Shown: one piece after another, positions 54,087 through 63,002 of the stretch
Numbering within the stretch: the first letter of the stretch is position 1
Layout: every line of letters starts with the position of its first letter
From: Gemmatimonas aurantiaca T-27
Lineage (GTDB): Bacteria > Gemmatimonadota > Gemmatimonadetes > Gemmatimonadales > Gemmatimonadaceae
DNA: 64,000 nt
Direction of reading: 5' to 3'
NCBI RefSeq assembly: GCF_000010305.1
Contig: NC_012489.1
Location: 3,603,646 to 3,667,645 of the forward strand
Notes under the pieces: model-generated
The model's database searches: none
What the model was told of the DNA's origin: nothing
The model's input: the letters and a program-made list of their open reading frames with translations, nothing else
Program-made: the position numbers and the translations under genes

Positions 54087-56186
54087 ATGGGACTCGGCTT
54101 TCTCGTTCCGGCATTCCTGGCCGCACTCGCTGCGCTGGCTGTGCCCATTCTGCTGCACCTGCGACATCGCGACCGCGACCGCCCCCTGCGGTTTCCGTCA
54201 CTGATGTTCCTGGAGCAATTGCCTATCCGTACGGAAAGCCGGCAGCGCATCACCGACTGGCCGATGCTGCTGCTGCGGTTGCTCGCACTGGCACTGCTGG
54301 TGTTCGCTTTCGCGCGCCCGGTGCTCAAGGACCAGCGGGTGGTGGGCGCCGACAATCGCACCAAGGCGGTGGTGATTCTGCTCGACCGGTCGATGAGCAT
54401 GGGGTACACCGGTGTGTGGCCGCGCGCCCTCGATTCAGCCCGGGCGGTCATCGATCGGTTGGAAGGCAAGGATCGTGTGGCCCTGGTGGCCTACGACGAT
54501 GCGGCCGAGGTGATGCAGCGCCTGACGGATGACCGGGCGGCGGTGCGCGGCAGCCTGGGTGCGGTGCAGCCGATGCGCAGAGGCACCCGTCTCGCGCCCG
54601 CACTGCGTACTGCTCGGCAGTTGCTGCTCGATGCGCCGTTTGCCGCGGCGGAAGTGATCGTGATCTCCGACCTGCAGCGAGCCAGTGCCTCAGGCATTGC
54701 GGGGGTGGAGTTTCCCTCCGGCGTGCAGGTGCGTGGCATCGGCGTGGGTGGCGAGACGTGGGTGAACAGCACCGTGCGCTCGCTCGATGCACGCCGCGTG
54801 CGCGAAGGCGATCGCACCTTGCTGGCCGTGAAGGCTCGGGTGCAGAACCACGCGCTGCCCGCCGCGCGGCAGGTGACGGCCTCACTGACCGTCAATGGAC
54901 GTGAGGCCACCACGGCATCGACGTCCCTGACCCGTGACGGCGAAACGGTGATCACGTTCACGCCGGTGCCTGCGCCCGACGGAGCCGTGGCCATACGAGT
55001 GGCGCTGCCGCCCGATTCGCTGGTAGCAGACGACACCCTGGTGGCGGTGGTACCACGCGATGATCTGTTGCGTGTGGCGCTGGTGGCGCCGTCGGACATG
55101 AGTGCATCGGAAACACTGTACCTGCAGCAGGCACTCGGCATCGGTCGCGCGCCGCAGATGCAGGTGGAGCGGCTGACCAGCGCGCCGTCCAATGCGGCGG
55201 CGTTGGCCCGTACCGGTGTCGTGCTGTTCTGGGATGTGGCACCCGATGCACCGGCCGCACTCACGACGTGGGTGAACGACGGTGGTGGCATCGTGCTGGC
55301 AGCGGGTCGTCGGCTCGCCGCGCGGCGTTCGGCGCTTCCGGCGTATGCTGGTATCAGCTTCAGTGGTCTGGCGGATCGGGTAAGCGATCGTGGTGGCACC
55401 CTGCGTGATGTGCGCGCCGAACACGCCCTGTTTGCGCCTTTCCGTGAAGCCAAGGATGCGCTCACAGCGGTGCGCGCCTGGCGTTATCCGCGCGGTGATG
55501 CGGTGCCCACGGCCGACATTCTGGCCCGGTTCGATGATGGTGTACCCGCGGTGCTCGAACAGCGCATCGGCAATGGCCGCGCTTTGACACTCACGGTGCC
55601 GCTGGACAATCAGTACGGTGACTTCCCGCTGCAGCCCGCCTACCTGCCTTTTGTGCGGCAGTTGGTGCTGCACACCTCGGGACGTGATGCCACGCCGCTG
55701 TGGCTGAGCACCGGCGAGAGTTGGTCACTACCCACCACACTGACCAATCCGGTAGTGACCGGTCCCACCGGTGCACTCACCCGTCCCCAGGCCGATTCGG
55801 CCGGCGCCGCCGTGGCCCTGCCTGACGCGGGACTGTACACGGCGTATGCGGAACGAGCGTCGGGCGAGCCCGGCGCGGTGCAGGCCGTCAATGTGCCGCC
55901 CAGTGAGTCGGAACTGACCCCGATGGACACCACCGAGCTGCTGCTCGGCGTGCGTACCACGTCCACAGCACAGTCTGCTGCGTCGGCTAACGCCGATGCA
56001 CCAATGACCGTCGAAGAGATGGAACGCCGCCAGAATCCCTGGCGGGTACTGCTCATTGTCGCCGCACTGTTGTTGCTCGCCGAAACGATTCTTGGGACAC
56101 GTGGCCGCCGAGGCATGGCGCGCCGTGTGGTTCCTGGCACAACGTCAAACAGATCGGCCGGCGGATCCACACCGGCTGGTCCGTGA
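54087..56186 (+). CDS. BatA-like membrane vWA protein
   Basis: A 699-residue protein. The N terminus is the BatA/aerotolerance-type signature: GFLVPAFLAALAALAVPILL and HLRHRDRDRPLRFPSLMFLE, then a second helix (LLLRLLALALLVFAFARPVL). A vWA domain with an intact metal motif (LLDRSMSMGYTG) and VIVISDLQRAS follows. The middle is Ig-like plus an amidotransferase-like segment (TWVNDGGGIVLAAGRRLAAR). One C-terminal helix (WRVLLIVAALLLLAETILG) anchors the other end. It is a likely MoxR/DUF58 client at the inner membrane. Its short Thr/Ser/Gly tail ends 34 bases before the DUF4175 gene. Confidence 0.9.
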   Translation: MGLGFLVPAFLAALAALAVPILLHLRHRDRDRPLRFPSLMFLEQLPIRTESRQRITDWPMLLLRLLALALLVFAFARPVLKDQRVVGADNRTKAVVILLDRSMSMGYTGVWPRALDSARAVIDRLEGKDRVALVAYDDAAEVMQRLTDDRAAVRGSLGAVQPMRRGTRLAPALRTARQLLLDAPFAAAEVIVISDLQRASASGIAGVEFPSGVQVRGIGVGGETWVNSTVRSLDARRVREGDRTLLAVKARVQNHALPAARQVTASLTVNGREATTASTSLTRDGETVITFTPVPAPDGAVAIRVALPPDSLVADDTLVAVVPRDDLLRVALVAPSDMSASETLYLQQALGIGRAPQMQVERLTSAPSNAAALARTGVVLFWDVAPDAPAALTTWVNDGGGIVLAAGRRLAARRSALPAYAGISFSGLADRVSDRGGTLRDVRAEHALFAPFREAKDALTAVRAWRYPRGDAVPTADILARFDDGVPAVLEQRIGNGRALTLTVPLDNQYGDFPLQPAYLPFVRQLVLHTSGRDATPLWLSTGESWSLPTTLTNPVVTGPTGALTRPQADSAGAAVALPDAGLYTAYAERASGEPGAVQAVNVPPSESELTPMDTTELLLGVRTTSTAQSAASANADAPMTVEEMERRQNPWRVLLIVAALLLLAETILGTRGRRGMARRVVPGTTSNRSAGGSTPAGP

Positions 56187-56220
56187 TGTCCACGGGTTCG
56201 CCCCAGTTGAAGGAGCCACG

Positions 56221-59200
56221 ATGAGTCCCGACCGTCAGTTGCTCACCGCACTCGGCACGCTGCGTCGCCAATGGCGTCAGCGCGTGCTGCTGGAATCCGT
56301 GGTCTGGATCGCGACGGCCATCGTGCTGGCGGTGTTGGCCACGTGGGCCATCACCACATGGCTTGGCGGTGATGGACGTGCACTCTGGACCGCGCGACTG
56401 GTGGGGTATGGGCTCATCGTCGTGGCGATCGTGCGCGGGCTGATCATCCCGTTGATGCGCCGGGCCAGCGACGAACGGTTTGCGTTGTACGTGGAGGAAC
56501 GTGCGCCGGCCTTGCGTCAGACGCTGCTGGCGGCCGTGCAGGAAGCCCATGTGCCCGAAAGTCAGCGCATGTCGCAGTCCCTGTCGGCCCGCGTGATGTC
56601 GCGTGCCGCGTCGGCGATTGCACCGCTGCACCGTGGGGCGTCGCTCGAGCGTGAGCGCATGACGCGTGCCGGCCAGGCGATCGGCGTGGTGACGGCCGTA
56701 GCCGCGGTGGCGCTCTACTTCGGCCCGCAGTCCGTACGCGACGGGGCGCGTCTGCTGTTTGTGCCGTTTGGTACCGCGCAGGCGGCAACGCCCGAGCGGC
56801 GCGTGGCCGTGGAACCGGGATCGGTGGCAGTGCCGCGTGGCGGTGCCATCGAAGTGCGCGCGGAGCTGGTCGGCTTTGCGGCCAGCGGCGCGGAGATCGT
56901 GTTCCGTACCGACAGCGGCGGCGCGACGGGTGGAGAGTGGCAACGGTTGCCTATGGCGCCTGACGCCGATACGTCGCAGTTCCGGTCGCGTCTATTCGAT
57001 ATTGTCACGCCCACCGAGTACTACGTAGAGAGCGCTGATGTGCGCTCGCCGGTGTATCGGCTCACGGTGAACAACCTGCCGGCGGTCTCGCAGGTCTCGC
57101 TCGACCTCAAGTTCCCGGCCTACAGTGGCCTGCCCACCGAACATGTCGATGACGGCGGTGATGTGGCGGCCGTGGTCGGTACCACCGTCACGGTGCACGC
57201 CAAAGTCACGCGTGCCGTGAAGGGTGGTGCGCTGCGCTTCGACGACGGCACCACCGTCGCGCTCACGCCCGACAGTGACACCACCGTGAGCGGCAGCTTC
57301 CGCGTGACACGCAGCGGGTTCTATCACGTGGACCTGGTCGCGCCCGACGGACAAACGGTGGCCGGTTCGGTGGAATATGTCGTGGACGCCATTCCGGACC
57401 GTGCGCCGATGGTGCGCATCGAAGATCCGGGGCGTGACACGAAGGTATCGAACACCGATGAAGTGACCGTGGCCGTGCGCGCGTCCGACGATCTGGGTGT
57501 GGTATCGATGGAACTGCGCTACCGCGTGAACGGTGGCCCCGAGCAAGCGAAGAAGATCACCGACAGCACCGCGCGTCGTCCGCGCGATGCCCAGGGGGCA
57601 CACACGTTGTTCCTCGAGGAGATGTCGCTGCAGCCGGGCGATCTGGTGGCGTATCACGCGGTCGCCAAGGATGGCGGCGGCCACGAGGGCACCAGTGACG
57701 TGTACTTCCTCGAAGTGCGTCCGTTTGGCAAGGACTATCGGCAGTCCGACGATCGTCAGCAGGGTGGTGGCGGAGGCGGTGGCGGCGGACAGCAGGATTC
57801 GCCGGACGGATTCATGGCCCGCCAGAAGGAGATCGTGTCGGCCACGTTCAACTGGATGCGCGACAGTGCGACGAGCACGGACAAGAAGCGTCGCGAAGAT
57901 ATGGCAACGCTTGCCATTGCCGAGGGGCGCCTGCGCACGGATGTGTCGGAGCTGGTGAAGCGTCTGACCGAACGTGGCGTGGCGAAGGGCGACACGAACT
58001 TCTTCAAGATCCGTGCGGAGCTGCAGCAGGCCACGGTGGAGTTGCAGGCGGCCGAAGAACAGTTGGGGCGCGCCCGGGGTGGTGATGCGATGCCCCCGGA
58101 GCAGCGTGCCCTGCAGCGTCTGCAGCGTGCGGAAGCGATCTACCGCGACGTGCAGGTGCAGATGGGTGGTGGCGGAGGGGGTGGCGGCGGTGGTGGTGGT
58201 GGCGGACAGCAGCGCGCCGAGGACCTCGCAGACCTGTTCGAACTGCAGACCGACAAGCAGCGCAATCAGTACGAGACGGTGCAGCAGGGACGGCCCGAGA
58301 GCGCACCGCAGCAGGAAGTGGATGAAACGCTGGAGCGGCTCAAGCAGATGGCGCAGCGTCAGCAACAGGAAAACGAGCGTATGCAGCGCATGGCCGATCA
58401 GATGCGTCAGCGGATGGCGCAGGAGAGCGGCGGTGCGAGTGGATCCAGCGGCGGCTCGGCGGGTGCGTCCGGTTCTGCCGGAGCACAGGGCGCGGCGGGG
58501 CAGAACAACAACCGTCCCAACGGTGGCAACACGAACAGCGGAGCGCAGCGTGAGCTGGCGCGCCAGGCGGAAGAAGAAGCACGGCGCCTGGAGCGGCTGT
58601 CGCGTGAACAGAACAATCCCGAACTCGCGAACGCCGCACAGCAACTGCAGCAGGCGGCCGACGCGATGCGTCGCGCGGCCAGCGGATCGAACGCCCAGGG
58701 CAGCGCGGCGCTCGAAGAGCTGACGCGTGCCGCGCGTGGTCTCGAAGGGGCACGGTCGGCGGAGTCCTCGCGTGGTGTGCAGCAGTTGGCTGAACGCGCG
58801 CAGGATCTCGAAGCGCGTCAGCGCGAGATCTCGCAGGGTGTGAAGGCCATCCAGGGCCAGCAGGCCTCACCGCAGCAGCGCGCCGAACAGTTGCGGCAGA
58901 TCTCGCAGCAGAAGGACGAGCTCAATCGTGACGTGCGCCGGCTGGAATCCGATGCGGATCGTTTGGCGCGGGATTCACGTCGTGATCAGCCCAAGGCAGC
59001 GGGCAAGGTGGCCGAGGCGGCGGAGACGATCCGTGATACCCGTCTGGCGGACAAGATCGAGTTCTCGAAGCAGGTCGCACGCGGTGGCTCGGAAGAGTAC
59101 GCGTCGGCGTTCGAGGCGCAGATCGCCGACAACCTGCGTGATGTGAGCGAGCAACTGCGGGCCGCGTCGGGTTCGCTGCAGGGCGAATCGGCTGCGCGTC

Positions 59201-60012
59201 AGCAGGAACGCACACTGGAGGCCACGCGGGATCTGGTGCGCGGGCTGGAGTCGCTGCGCGAGCGGATCGCCGACCGGCAGGGGCAGCAAGGCCAGCAAGG
59301 CCAGCAAGGCCAGCAAGGCCAGCAAGGCCAGCAAGGCCAGCAAGGCCAGCAAGGCCAGCAAGGCCAGCAGGGCCAGCAGGGCCAGCAAGGCCAGCAGGGC
59401 CAGCAGGGCCAGCAGGGCCAGCAGGGCCAGCAGGGCCAGCAGGGCCAGCAGGGCCAGCAGGGCCAGCAGGGCCAGCAGGGACAGCAGGGACAGCAGGGAC
59501 AGCAGGGACAGCAGGGACAGCAGGGACAGCAGGGACAGCAGGGACAGCAGGGCGGTGGTGCGCCGAATGGCTCGAACAGTGGTGCACCGCGCATGGGTGG
59601 CTCGCCGCGCTCGCAGGTGGGTGAGATGGCGCCTGGCGGATCACCGATGAGTGGTCAGATGGCAGGAGACGCCACGCAGTTCGCGCGGGAGTTCCGTCTG
59701 CGTCGTGAAAACGCGGAGGGACTGCGGCGCGAAGCAGCGCAGCAGGGGATCGACACACGAGATCTGGATCGAGCGATCCAGGGGCTGCGCCAGCTCGAGA
59801 ACAGTCGCGCGTTTGGTGACCCGAAGGGGCTCGAGGCGCTGCAGACGGCGATGCTGGAGCGACTCAAGGATTTCGAATTCGCGGCATTGCGGGCGGCGGG
59901 CCTGGGAAGCGACGGCCGACCGGCGGCAGGGGCACGGGCAGCGGTACCGGGGGAGTACCGGGCGTTGGTGGAGGAGTACTACCGGTCGTTGGCCAGGAGA
60001 GGCGGGAAGTAG
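56221..60012 (+). CDS. DUF4175 giant membrane protein with (Gly-Gln-Gln)30 tract
   Basis: A 1263-residue protein. The start at ATG 56221 is supported by AGGAG five bases upstream. Three N-terminal helices (about 22-40, 58-76, 155-172) are followed by a large extracytoplasmic Ig-like/beta region, then a long Gln/Glu/Arg-rich coiled coil (about 520-1000) that includes two poly-Gly stretches (9 and 14 Gly) near residues 515-525 and 648-662. Residues 1021-1110 are 30 uninterrupted Gly-Gln-Gln units. The C-terminal domain (EFRLRRENAEGLRREAAQQG ... PGEYRALVEEYYRSLARRGG) is typical of DUF4175 proteins. Function unknown; it is the last gene of the MoxR/vWA cluster and probably its envelope-spanning component. 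Confidence 0.88.
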   Translation: MSPDRQLLTALGTLRRQWRQRVLLESVVWIATAIVLAVLATWAITTWLGGDGRALWTARLVGYGLIVVAIVRGLIIPLMRRASDERFALYVEERAPALRQTLLAAVQEAHVPESQRMSQSLSARVMSRAASAIAPLHRGASLERERMTRAGQAIGVVTAVAAVALYFGPQSVRDGARLLFVPFGTAQAATPERRVAVEPGSVAVPRGGAIEVRAELVGFAASGAEIVFRTDSGGATGGEWQRLPMAPDADTSQFRSRLFDIVTPTEYYVESADVRSPVYRLTVNNLPAVSQVSLDLKFPAYSGLPTEHVDDGGDVAAVVGTTVTVHAKVTRAVKGGALRFDDGTTVALTPDSDTTVSGSFRVTRSGFYHVDLVAPDGQTVAGSVEYVVDAIPDRAPMVRIEDPGRDTKVSNTDEVTVAVRASDDLGVVSMELRYRVNGGPEQAKKITDSTARRPRDAQGAHTLFLEEMSLQPGDLVAYHAVAKDGGGHEGTSDVYFLEVRPFGKDYRQSDDRQQGGGGGGGGGQQDSPDGFMARQKEIVSATFNWMRDSATSTDKKRREDMATLAIAEGRLRTDVSELVKRLTERGVAKGDTNFFKIRAELQQATVELQAAEEQLGRARGGDAMPPEQRALQRLQRAEAIYRDVQVQMGGGGGGGGGGGGGGQQRAEDLADLFELQTDKQRNQYETVQQGRPESAPQQEVDETLERLKQMAQRQQQENERMQRMADQMRQRMAQESGGASGSSGGSAGASGSAGAQGAAGQNNNRPNGGNTNSGAQRELARQAEEEARRLERLSREQNNPELANAAQQLQQAADAMRRAASGSNAQGSAALEELTRAARGLEGARSAESSRGVQQLAERAQDLEARQREISQGVKAIQGQQASPQQRAEQLRQISQQKDELNRDVRRLESDADRLARDSRRDQPKAAGKVAEAAETIRDTRLADKIEFSKQVARGGSEEYASAFEAQIADNLRDVSEQLRAASGSLQGESAARQQERTLEATRDLVRGLESLRERIADRQGQQGQQGQQGQQGQQGQQGQQGQQGQQGQQGQQGQQGQQGQQGQQGQQGQQGQQGQQGQQGQQGQQGQQGQQGQQGQQGQQGQQGQQGQQGGGAPNGSNSGAPRMGGSPRSQVGEMAPGGSPMSGQMAGDATQFAREFRLRRENAEGLRREAAQQGIDTRDLDRAIQGLRQLENSRAFGDPKGLEALQTAMLERLKDFEFAALRAAGLGSDGRPAAGARAAVPGEYRALVEEYYRSLARRGGK
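59281..59550 (+). repeat. Thirty-copy 9-bp minisatellite coding (GQQ)30
   Basis: Thirty in-frame 9-bp units. By synonymous type and order: one GGGCAGCAA, eight GGCCAGCAA, two GGCCAGCAG, one GGCCAGCAA, ten GGCCAGCAG and eight GGACAGCAG. The amino acids never change; variants sit in blocks. This is a typical slippage-prone tract. Confidence 0.97.
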
Positions 60013-60027
60013 CTGCGGGGGCTGGAC

Positions 60028-60056
60028 GGAGCTACGGGAGCTGGACCGACGGGAAA
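60028..60056 (+). repeat. Left inverted repeat bracketing the four-helix-bundle gene
   Basis: A 29-base sequence opening GGAGCTACGGGAGCTGGAC, 16 bases after the DUF4175 stop. It is the reverse complement of 60511-60540 with one mismatch and one 1-base gap. Confidence 0.85.
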
Positions 60057-60071
60057 GAACGGTGACCGGAT

Positions 60072-60446
60072 CTACTGTGTGGTGATGGCGAGTCGTGATT
60101 GAACGGCGCGCAGCAACCGCTCCAGCATCTGACACACCACCGCGCGTTTTGCCTGGCAGCGGCGCGCGGTGTGCTCGTCGAGCGCTCCCACCGTGCGCGC
60201 GACCCGCAGATGCGCGCCGACTTCGTTGGCCGAGCCAAGAGCGATAGTGAGTCCGCGCGCGAACTGTTGATCGGTGCCAAGCCCCGCGGCTTCCGCAATG
60301 TTGGCCGGGATGGCATCGGCCGCGGCAAGCAATTGCGCACGCAGCCCGGGAGCCTTGCCAACCTTGATGCGTGGCGCTGCGTCATGAATCGCGGCGCAGA
60401 GATCATGCGCGGCAGCGAAGACGCGGAGGTTTCGAAGATCGGCCAT
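60072..60446 (-). CDS. Four-helix-bundle protein (23S rRNA IVP/S23 family)
   Basis: A 124-residue helical protein. It starts MADLRNLRVFAAAHDLCAAI and continues with AQLLAAADAIPANIAEAAGL, RGLTIALGSANEVGAHLRVA and RAVVCQMLERLLRAVQ, four amphipathic helices in the order of the IVP/S23 family. The conserved R/D..S.PxNIAEG-like turn is present as IPANIAEAAG. Members occur inside 23S rRNA intervening sequences and, as here, free in chromosomes; some are accessory to diversity-generating retroelements (Avd). None of those contexts is visible. The gene is enclosed by inverted repeats (60028-60056 and 60511-60540), suggesting that it may move or have been inserted as a unit. Confidence 0.85.
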   Translation of the reverse strand: MADLRNLRVFAAAHDLCAAIHDAAPRIKVGKAPGLRAQLLAAADAIPANIAEAAGLGTDQQFARGLTIALGSANEVGAHLRVARTVGALDEHTARRCQAKRAVVCQMLERLLRAVQSRLAITTQ

Positions 60447-60510
60447 ACACGAGGATGCGTGTACCAGCCGACTGCGCGGTAACCCAATCTACGCGCCCAT
60501 ACCCCCCGTA

Positions 60511-60540
60511 TTTCCCCGTCCGTCCAGCTCCCGTAGCTCC
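60511..60540 (-). repeat. Right inverted repeat bracketing the four-helix-bundle gene
   Basis: A 30-base sequence ending TCCAGCTCCCGTAGCTCC, the reverse complement of the left repeat except for one substitution and one inserted base. Confidence 0.85.
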
Positions 60541-60570
60541 AGCTCCCGTGGCCCCAGCTCCCGTAGTTCC
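60526..60570 (+). repeat. Three-copy 15-bp tandem repeat
   Basis: AGCTCCCGTAGCTCC, AGCTCCCGTGGCCCC and AGCTCCCGTAGTTCC follow each other at exact 15-base spacing. The first copy lies inside the right inverted repeat. Confidence 0.9.
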
Positions 60571-60747
60571 GGCCCACGGTCACTCCCCTTGCCCTTCTCA
60601 GTCATCGTGACGGTGTGTGCCTTCTCCCGCACGAAAACCCGCGAAATCGGCATCAAGTCCAGCGCCTCCGCTCCGATCTTCAACTATGAACGAGCGTGGT
60701 TGCCGCCGATGTCGGTGGGGGCCGCTCGCGCCCGTTATCGCAGTCCG

Positions 60748-61236
60748 ATGCCTCTCGACACCACAACTCGCATGTTGGCCCCGTTCCTCAATCGGTTGAG
60801 CGATGAGGAACTGGATTCCATTCCCTACGGGGTGATTCAATTGGATCCCGAGGGTTTTGTCGTTTCCTACAATCGTGCGGAAGCCGAGAATGCCGGCTAC
60901 TGCCCACGCCCCATTGGTCGACATTTTTTTCGTGAGGTCGCCCCCAGCGCCAACGCCCCGGAGTTTCACGGGCGGTTCCTGCGTGGTGTCGCCGAAGGTC
61001 GACTCGATGAGACCTTCAACTTCACGTACCACTGCGACCTGATGCCGCGGCGTGTGCAGCTACGGTTGTACCTGTCCCCTCAGACCCAGTCCGTTTGGCT
61101 CTTTGTCGCCAAACCGGACGGCACTCCGCTCGACTGGCCCAGTGTGGACCTCACGCCGGTGCTCACCTCCAAGTATGTGCCGCGCTTCACCGGCTTCGCC
61201 GCTCTGAATGCCACCGTGGACGCCCTGCTGGCCTGA
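60748..61236 (+). CDS. Photoactive yellow protein-like PAS protein without the chromophore Cys
   Basis: A 162-residue PAS protein. From residue 18 it follows the photoactive yellow protein fold closely: LDSIPYGVIQLDPEGFVVSY, NRAEAENAG, IGRHFFREVAPSANAPEFHG and a final VWLFVAKPDG strand. In PYP of Halorhodospira halophila the segment VAPCTDSPEF carries Cys69, the p-coumarate attachment site; here the same place is Ser67 (codon AGC at 60946-60948). Tyr42 and Glu46 equivalents are kept (Tyr41, Glu45), Thr50, Arg52 and Met100 are not. So it is probably not a covalent blue-light sensor. The ATG at 60748 is chosen by family length; frame-open starts at 60589 and 60709 exist. A C-terminal 35-residue extension is unique. 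Confidence 0.85.
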   Translation: MPLDTTTRMLAPFLNRLSDEELDSIPYGVIQLDPEGFVVSYNRAEAENAGYCPRPIGRHFFREVAPSANAPEFHGRFLRGVAEGRLDETFNFTYHCDLMPRRVQLRLYLSPQTQSVWLFVAKPDGTPLDWPSVDLTPVLTSKYVPRFTGFAALNATVDALLA

Positions 61237-61273
61237 TAGACAGGCCACAGGTCCCGACCAATGTGCACCACCC

Positions 61274-61310
61274 GATGCGCCAACTGGACGCCCTGTCCGG
61301 TTGGCGCATC
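61274..61310 (+). terminator. Long perfect-type hairpin after the PYP-like gene
   Basis: GATGCGCCAACTGGAC (61274-61289) pairs with GTCCGGTTGGCGCATC (61295-61310): 16 pairs with one T-G wobble, loop GCCCT. It starts 38 bases after the stop. No T tract follows, so terminator or RNA-stability element are both possible. Confidence 0.55.
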
Positions 61311-61457
61311 GAGTCATGTCTGAACATCACCGGACGCATCGTCAGCGGCTCAGACCAATAGCTCTGACCTGGGCGGCACACCGTCACGCGCGTACCACCT
61401 GCGCAACGGGCCCGTCGCGTCGCTCGCGATTTGCCGCGCCAGGCGTAGCATAGGAGC

Positions 61458-63002
61458 ATGGAACGCCGACTCTTCCTTGCCGATCTGACGCGCTACGCCG
61501 CCCTCTGCGCCGTCGTCCCCAACATCTGGCGCGTCACCTCGCGCCCACACTTCGCCGACAATCCGTTCGGCCTGGGCGTCTCGTCCGGTGATCCAACCCC
61601 CACCGGCGGTGTGCTCTGGACCCGTCTTGCCCCGCGCCCCAACGATCCCGATGGTGGCATGGAAGGCACACGCGCGACCGTCGATTGGGAAGTCGCCCAC
61701 GATGATCAGTTCAAGAACATCGTGACCAAAGGACGCGCGACGGCCGGACCGGAACTCGCCTACAGCATTCACGTCGACGTGGACGGACTCGAGCCCGATC
61801 GGTGGTACTTCTACCGCTTCATGAGCGGCGAAGCCGTGAGCCCGACCGGTCGATTCCGCACCACGCCGCCAGACGGCGCGCGCACGCCGCTGCACATGGC
61901 GTTCATGTCATGCCAGCGCTGGGACCAGGGGTTGTTCACCGCGCTCGGACACGTCGCACGCGAGGAGCAACTCGACCTCGCCATCCACCTCGGCGACTAC
62001 ATCTACGAAGGCGCGAGTCCCGCCACGGCCCTGCGCAAACATCAGGGCCTCGAGATCCGCACGCTCGACGACTATCGCCGTCGGTATGCGCAGTACAAGA
62101 GCGATCCCAATCTGCGCGCCGCACACGAGCGATGCCCGTGGCTCGTCACGTGGGATGATCACGAGGTCGACAACAACTACGCCGGTCTCGTGGGCGAAAA
62201 CGTCATGGAGTCGACGGAGCAGATGCAGCAGCGTCGTGCGGCGGCCTATCAAGGCTGGTGGGAACACCAGGCCGTGCGCGTACCACGGGTGAAATCCTGG
62301 GCCGATCTCAACATCACGCGCACCGTGAACTGGGGATCGCTGTCGCGCTTCTACATGCTCGATACCCGGCAATACCGCGACGACCAAGCCTGCGGTGACA
62401 TGATCAAGCCCGTCTGCGCCGATTCGCTCGATCCCAAGCGCACCATGCTCGGTGCCGCGCAGGAACAATGGCTGTACAACGGACTGGGCTCGTCCAAGGC
62501 GCACTGGCAGGTCATCGCCAACCAGGTGATGATGGCACAGTACGATGCTGCTGCAGGGCCCGACTTCCGTGTCTCGATGGACCAGTGGGGTGGCTATCCG
62601 GTCGCACGTGATCGCCTGCTCGGCGAGATCGGCAAGCGCGCCCCCAATCGGACCGTGGTCATCACCGGCGACATCCACACCAATTGGGTGCACGACCTGC
62701 ACAACGGCTTCTCGCGCCCAGACCGACCGGTGATCGCCACGGAATTTGTGGGCACCAGCATCGCCTCCGACGGCGATGGCCGAGACATCGATGCCGCGCG
62801 CCTGTCGACCATGCAGAGTGAAAACCCGCATCTCAAGTGGTACTCCGCGCGTCGCGGTTACGTACGTTGCCGCATCGACGAGCAGGCCTGGAACGTGGAC
62901 TATCGCACCGTGCCGTTTGTCTCGCGTCCCGATGCGCCGATCAGCACCGCGACGTCGTGGCGGTTGCAGCATGGGAAGGCCGGGGCCGAACGCACCGCGT
63001 GA
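61458..63002 (+). CDS. phoD: PhoD-type alkaline phosphatase/phosphodiesterase, Tat-like signal
   Basis: A 514-residue secreted phosphatase. The N terminus MERRLFLADLTRYAALCAVV resembles a twin-arginine signal, normal for PhoD, whose Fe/Ca site is built before export. The fibronectin-like N-terminal domain has GLGVSSGDPTPTGGVLWTRL; the metallophosphatase core has MAFMSCQRWDQG, LAIHLGDYIYEG, VTWDDHEVDNNYAG and VVITGDIHTNWVHDL. All metal-binding segments look intact. It should release phosphate from mono- and diesters outside the cytoplasm. No Pho-box was identified in the 221-base upstream gap. Confidence 0.94.
   Translation: MERRLFLADLTRYAALCAVVPNIWRVTSRPHFADNPFGLGVSSGDPTPTGGVLWTRLAPRPNDPDGGMEGTRATVDWEVAHDDQFKNIVTKGRATAGPELAYSIHVDVDGLEPDRWYFYRFMSGEAVSPTGRFRTTPPDGARTPLHMAFMSCQRWDQGLFTALGHVAREEQLDLAIHLGDYIYEGASPATALRKHQGLEIRTLDDYRRRYAQYKSDPNLRAAHERCPWLVTWDDHEVDNNYAGLVGENVMESTEQMQQRRAAAYQGWWEHQAVRVPRVKSWADLNITRTVNWGSLSRFYMLDTRQYRDDQACGDMIKPVCADSLDPKRTMLGAAQEQWLYNGLGSSKAHWQVIANQVMMAQYDAAAGPDFRVSMDQWGGYPVARDRLLGEIGKRAPNRTVVITGDIHTNWVHDLHNGFSRPDRPVIATEFVGTSIASDGDGRDIDAARLSTMQSENPHLKWYSARRGYVRCRIDEQAWNVDYRTVPFVSRPDAPISTATSWRLQHGKAGAERTA

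Follow-up and report, generated by a model that had tools for sequence, protein, structure and literature searches.

A Cys69-less photoactive yellow protein paralogue of Gemmatimonas with a putative flagellar-type promoter

The genome of Gemmatimonas aurantiaca (one contig, 4,636,964 bp) carries a photoactive yellow protein (PYP) homologue without the chromophore-binding cysteine. The gene belongs to a lineage, here denoted family I, preceded by a candidate sigma-28 (FliA)-type promoter. On balance we favour the view that it encodes a Gemmatimonas-specific PYP paralogue, non-photoactive at Cys69, that is part of the flagellar/chemotaxis regulon. The features below are numbered within the window, the whole stretch of 64,000 nucleotides that was analyzed, and pocket positions throughout follow H. 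halophila PYP.

60653..60660 (+), -35 element TCAAGTCC of the putative sigma-28 (FliA)-type promoter, from the upstream alignment; identical to the E. coli flgKL -35 element (PMC4183435)
60672..60679 (+), -10 element TCCGATCT of the same putative promoter, after an 11-nt spacer, from the upstream alignment
60748..61236 (+), Cys69-less PYP paralogue (family I), 162 amino acids and stop, from the open reading frame, profile, orthologues and AlphaFold model
60748..60825 (+), residues 1-26, forming the N-terminal cap, where family I is conserved best, from orthologue conservation
60868..60870 (+), Tyr41, the Tyr42 equivalent; Tyr, Cys or Phe in the orthologues, from alignment
60880..60882 (+), Glu45, the Glu46 equivalent, invariant in family I, from alignment
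60946..60948 (+), Ser67 (AGC) at the position of the chromophore Cys69, from alignment
60949..60951 (+), Ala68 at the Thr70 position, Ala in 15 of 15 orthologues, from alignment
61033..61035 (+), Cys96, equivalent to the 'gateway' residue Tyr98; 14 of 15 orthologues have Cys here, from alignment
61123..61233 (+), C-terminal extension, residues 126-162, not conserved and modelled with low confidence, from orthologues and AlphaFold

The start and stop of the open reading frame are as given in a preliminary description of this DNA, and the ATG at 60748 is supported by an N-terminus (MPLDTTTRMLAPFL) common to the orthologues. The product is a free-standing single PYP domain of 162 amino acids. It matches the TIGR02373 profile with an E value of 1e-28, and PDB PYP sequences match it at E of about 1e-23. 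Its profile score of 99.9 bits stays below the equivalog cut-off (143.05 bits), which alone says little because Cys69-bearing homologues from other phyla also score below it. The AlphaFold model (pLDDT 82 overall, above 90 across most of the core) superimposes on PYP crystal structures with Z 19.9 and an rmsd of 1.7 A over 121 residues, placing model residues 1-123, N-terminal cap included, on PYP residues 4-125. By profile, sequence matches and predicted fold the protein is of PYP ancestry and structure, and the initial assignment as a PYP homologue holds. Judged from its sequence, it lies outside the functional PYP family as defined in PMC9664959, since it has no Cys69.

The residue that would form the thioester to p-coumarate (pCA) is replaced by Ser67, codon AGC, in agreement with the first reading of the sequence. 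A single-sequence protein search of genome contigs gave no match; an alignment-based query did. Orthologues, 55-68% identical to the G. aurantiaca protein, are present in 15 of the 30 Gemmatimonas genomes sampled (G. aurantiaca included). Position 69 is Ser in 12 of them and Gly in the other 3, and the Ser codons are AGC or TCN. Sequencing error is therefore not the explanation, as 14 further genomes of the genus carry such Cys-less homologues, which the preliminary description had proposed to seek, with Ser encoded in both ways in addition to Gly. The same description had regarded Ser as one base away from TGC; what we find instead is a fixed property of a clade and not a one-base event in a strain.

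Outside the genus, family I was found in none of 395 Gemmatimonadota genomes, a sample in which genera are represented evenly and rare carriers may be missed. We compared 101 homologue rows, including Acidobacteriota, Planctomycetota, a Myxococcota (from a sample of 5 genomes) and two PDB PYPs, and Cys69 is kept in all 85 rows outside family I. In an unrooted tree built from few columns, family I is monophyletic (support 100/99) and sits on a long stem among Cys69-bearing lineages. Because the clade is confined to one genus and every other lineage compared has Cys69, loss of this residue in the ancestry of family I is likelier, as far as the unrooted tree goes, than an origin that never had it. 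The reading frame is intact in 15 of 15 orthologues. Unsaturated pairs give pN/pS values far under 1, with omega of 0.03-0.21 for closely related pairs, which argues that the gene is maintained; by these estimates family I is under purifying selection. Its protein evolves faster than the Cys69-bearing paralogue of the genus, which could reflect weak constraint.

The hydrogen-bond pair Tyr42/Glu46 is kept as Tyr41/Glu45, as had been noted before. Glu46 is present in 15 of 15 orthologues, and position 42 is Tyr in 10, Cys in 4 and Phe in 1. Position 70, Thr in nearly all other homologues, is Ala throughout family I. Position 98, called gateway in the title of PDB entry 2i9v, is Cys in 14 orthologues and His in one, and aromatic or Leu in the other homologues. 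Glu46, Pro68, Ala70 and Trp119 are invariant and positions 52, 67 and 100 drift, with an extra pocket cysteine in nine orthologues, at 42 (4), 67 (4) or 52 (1). The preliminary description had drawn attention to changes at Arg52 and Met100: the residues are indeed Tyr and Leu, and we regard them as unremarkable because both positions vary among PYPs, the consensus at position 52 being a residue other than Arg (PMC12826048). It had also considered that another cysteine, for example Cys52, might occupy the pocket; Cys52 is not conserved among the orthologues, and the cysteine that recurs is Cys96, at position 98. The invariant Glu46 and the new Cys98 are compatible with a different signal being received in the same pocket.

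A search for chromophore-supply genes, suggested earlier, found that the only Lyase_aromatic protein of the G. aurantiaca genome is HutH (615.8 bits against a cut-off of 539), encoded beside HutU; no tyrosine ammonia-lyase (TAL) was detected in this genome. Nor was a PYP-type coumarate ligase (pCL) detected there, the best TIGR02372 match reaching 57 bits over about 105 C-terminal positions, with a cut-off of 334.7. The absence of both fits loss of pCA, but it is weak evidence and no strict criterion, since most Cys69 PYP operons lack these genes too: of the pyp operons, 5% include TAL and 32% include pCL (PMC12826048). Together with the clade-wide absence of Cys69 and the presence of Cys69 paralogues in the genus, these comparisons render the loss of covalent p-coumarate attachment in family I well supported, and to this extent the earlier proposal of lost p-coumarate binding stands. 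Two genomes in which the only PYP is Cys69-less (G009 and G016, loci L097 and L098) have aromatic ammonia-lyase and AMP-ligase-like genes. We rejected these pairs as TAL and pCL and did not count them as chromophore genes, since they lie among glycosyltransferase, acyltransferase, thioesterase and dehydratase-like genes in what we read by eye as an aryl-polyene-type cluster.

Most genomes of the genus hold, in addition to or instead of family I, the Cys69-bearing family II, about 40% identical to it. Family II does not occur in G. aurantiaca, and the nearly complete genomes of G. aurantiaca (G000), G005 and G008 have no Cys69 paralogue. Family II PYPs (L018, L026, L028, L033, L036, L038 and others) share an intergenic block, ACCGAATATACACCGAA, with repeated ACCGAA, about 150-210 nt upstream of the ELDxLPYG codons, a candidate operator or promoter. 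A third, canonical Cys69 PYP is found in G002 (L040, G002:C1:1266000-1278000), on the same strand as an HDOD gene and a tyrosine/histidine ammonia-lyase-like gene, about 4 kb apart. L040 is possibly a complete PYP system in a phototrophic Gemmatimonas, and it serves as a positive control for the appearance of a chromophore locus in this genus. We rejected the idea that family I tracks phototrophy: reaction-centre genes are present in 23 of the 30 genomes, and family I occurs with and without them.

An operon partner was sought and none was found; the family I gene stands alone and its neighbours change between genomes. No signalling gene adjoins it, the neighbours being unrelated (PhoD, KefC-like, DUF4175-type, SSF symporter). 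Within 60446-61458, the SSF symporter, NosD-like beta-helix protein and PEMT/ICMT-like methyltransferase that flank the paralogue in relatives are missing and the PYP gene stays. Nearby, arrays of a 15-nt unit (CCCGTAGCTCCAGCT type) at 60011-60062 and 60506-60574 form long inverted repeats (up to 35 nt, 89% complementary) flanking a 23S rRNA intervening-sequence-protein gene (60072-60446, minus strand), and a long (GQQ)n tract lies at about 59200-59600 inside the reading frame 56056-60012.

Conservation is distributed within family I in a manner opposite to that in family II. Across family I the N-terminal cap scores 0.81, the core 0.54 and the pocket 0.63. In the nine genomes that hold both families, the values for cap and core are 0.79 and 0.58 in family I versus 0.63 and 0.89 in family II, and the pocket scores 0.63 versus 0.98. 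The 25 cap codons after the start show a mean of 2.0 amino-acid types versus 3.9 codon types, indicating that the constraint acts on the protein. In PYP the N-terminal cap moves in the signalling state; given this movement and the strong conservation, we infer that the cap, the best-conserved surface, is the partner surface. The preliminary description had assigned this role to the C-terminal extension. We rejected the extension as output, as it differs among orthologues, three of which end at 135 amino acids nearly without it, and its pLDDT is about 40-60.

Alignment of the upstream regions detected a conserved block, CTcAAGTC-N12-CCGA, 92-106 nt before the start codon in 15 of 15 orthologues, holding nearly all positions conserved at 80% or above in a 90-nt stretch. 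In G. aurantiaca the candidate promoter at 60653-60679 reads TCAAGTCC-N11-TCCGATCT, and the E. coli flgKL sigma-28 site is TCAAGTCC-N11-GCCGATAA (PMC4183435). The family I site conforms to the FliA regulon promoter type TAAAGTTT-N11-GCCGATAA and is conserved among orthologues, the strict sigma-28-type pattern occurring in 13 of 15 upstream regions; among the looser matches listed for the 64-kb window it is the sole strict one. Flagellin genes of the genus carry CTCAAGTTC-N11-GACGACA in most genomes, with variants CTCAAGTTC-N11-(G/T/A)(A/C)CGA, at a distance similar to that of the family I site. In G000 and G002 a near-perfect site, TAAAGTTA...GCCGATAG, stands ahead of flgM, and a cheY-like gene comes next (both genes named by eye from their translations). 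In addition, the strict site lies near the start of 6 of 37 chemoreceptor genes from three genomes (about 0.3 expected), the reversed control pattern at 0 of 37, and the strict pattern occurs in 0.7% of random 600-nt segments. Family II upstream regions differ in sequence and have no sigma-28-type site.

Genome-wide, the strict motif is not enriched in G000 (22 sites versus 27 for the reversed control), and a looser form of the pattern is no more frequent than its own reversed control. A flagellin-trained matrix gave single family I promoters moderate scores, with p of about 0.01-0.07, and counting matches to the E. coli FliA consensus did not separate family I upstream regions from background. 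The promoter call therefore depends on how well the site is conserved and on the occurrence of such sites at motility genes, and from these we infer that the family I gene is transcribed by FliA.

In the explanation that we favour, family I has given up p-coumarate photochemistry and the protein is a soluble cytoplasmic PAS sensor or adaptor, which probably serves swimming behaviour by sensing a signal that is not light. FliA would transcribe the gene at the late stage of flagellar assembly at which chemoreceptors are produced. The pocket, with its invariant Glu46 and Ala70 and its Cys98, would respond to a signal other than pCA: a non-covalently bound small molecule, or a redox or electrophile change at Cys98. 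The response may loosen the N-terminal cap or shift its position, as happens in PYP, and through its conserved cap the protein may bind a chemoreceptor or a motor component. The particular ligand and partner in this scheme are tentative, and we hold them far less firmly than the overall explanation. A broader proposal, that within one genus a photoreceptor family turned into a non-light swimming sensor, losing Cys69, gaining a gateway thiol and keeping the output surface and a chemotaxis-type promoter, is possible, though we would not count on it.

Among the competing explanations, a thiol-based redox or electrophile sensor ranks highest, ahead of a signal-blind adaptor and of a non-covalently bound or relocated chromophore. 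In the redox explanation the place of the chromophore is taken by Cys98, joined in some orthologues by another pocket cysteine. Cys98 occurs in no other homologue compared, nor does any of these have Cys at 42, 67 or 52, and a comparable redox role has been proposed for Y42C/S50C in the Cys69-less Methylobacterium Ppr-PYPs (PMC9664959). However, the second cysteine moves between lineages and is missing in several, one orthologue has His98, and many cytoplasmic cysteines are inert; we hold this explanation to be unlikely. Somewhat less likely still is that the protein is a photoreceptor relic whose pocket senses nothing and whose cap competes for, or replaces, a PYP contact in the chemotaxis machinery. 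The cap better conserved than the pocket, the opposite of the Cys69 paralogue, and the drift at positions 52, 67 and 100 agree with this, whereas the invariant Glu46, Pro68, Ala70 and Trp119 and the nearly invariant Cys98 suggest that the pocket still matters, and G000, G005 and G008 hold no Cys69 paralogue to compete with.

That family I still senses light, with pCA or another chromophore bound without a covalent link or joined to Cys98 as a relocated thiol, appears improbable. The retained Glu46 and, in most orthologues, Tyr42 would allow it; Cys98 lies on the strand lining the pocket in the PYP fold; and FAST (Z 16.8) and nanoFAST (Z 12.6), engineered PYPs resembling the model, hold chromophore analogues non-covalently. 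Against this, Tyr42 is lost in 5 of 15 orthologues, phototrophic and non-phototrophic members carry family I alike, and G000 has no detectable TAL or PYP-type pCL, although many genomes with Cys69 PYPs also lack these next to pyp (PMC12826048). A decaying pseudogene or a sequencing error, to which the faster protein evolution might point, is refuted by the intact reading frames, the low pN/pS and the conservation of cap and promoter-like block in independent genomes.

Cys69-less PYPs are already known, Cys69 being substituted in 124 of 789 PYP homologue sequences (PMC9664959); the family I lineage and its link to a regulon appear new. In the article texts compared, PMC9664959 among them, we found no account of a Cys69-less lineage that is free-standing and genus-wide, has Cys98 and inverted conservation, and carries a motility promoter. 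Finding the partner through which PYP signals has been a standing problem ever since the protein was discovered (PMC9664959, PMC12826048), and in a Cys69-less paralogue with a conserved cap and a flagellar-type promoter the presumed output surface is uncoupled from photochemistry. The genus includes cultured, flagellated strains (G. phototrophica, G. groenlandica; PMC9862903) in which a Cys69 copy and a Cys69-less copy occur together, making a direct partner test possible. If a ligand proved to be attached at Cys98, the attachment site would have been relocated within the PYP fold.

With H. halophila PYP (clade A) the G. aurantiaca protein shares the fold, the single domain, the N-terminal cap and the Tyr42 and Glu46 equivalents, and it differs in lacking Cys69, in Thr70 to Ala, Tyr98 to Cys, Arg52 to Tyr and Met100 to Leu, in the variable C-terminal tail of its family and in having no detected TAL or pCL. 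The methylobacterial Ppr-PYPs and the 'PYP_like' branch (PMC9664959) resemble it in the absence of Cys69, in being expected not to bind pCA and, in some, in new pocket cysteines, but in Ppr the domain belongs to a multidomain histidine kinase and carries Y42C/S50C, whereas family I is free-standing, has Cys98, is restricted to one genus and has a sigma-28-type promoter. Family II of the Gemmatimonadaceae (e.g. L038, L026) comes from the same genus, is about 40% identical and is likewise a single domain; unlike family I, it has Cys69, Thr70 and Phe98 fixed, a nearly invariant pocket and no sigma-28-type site upstream. Finally, the Leptospira PYP near chemoreceptors and Campylobacter CetB/CetA (PMC9664959) offer the parallel of a soluble PAS/PYP protein proposed to feed a chemoreceptor; there the protein is encoded beside its receptor, whereas family I is linked to chemoreceptors by the shared promoter type only.
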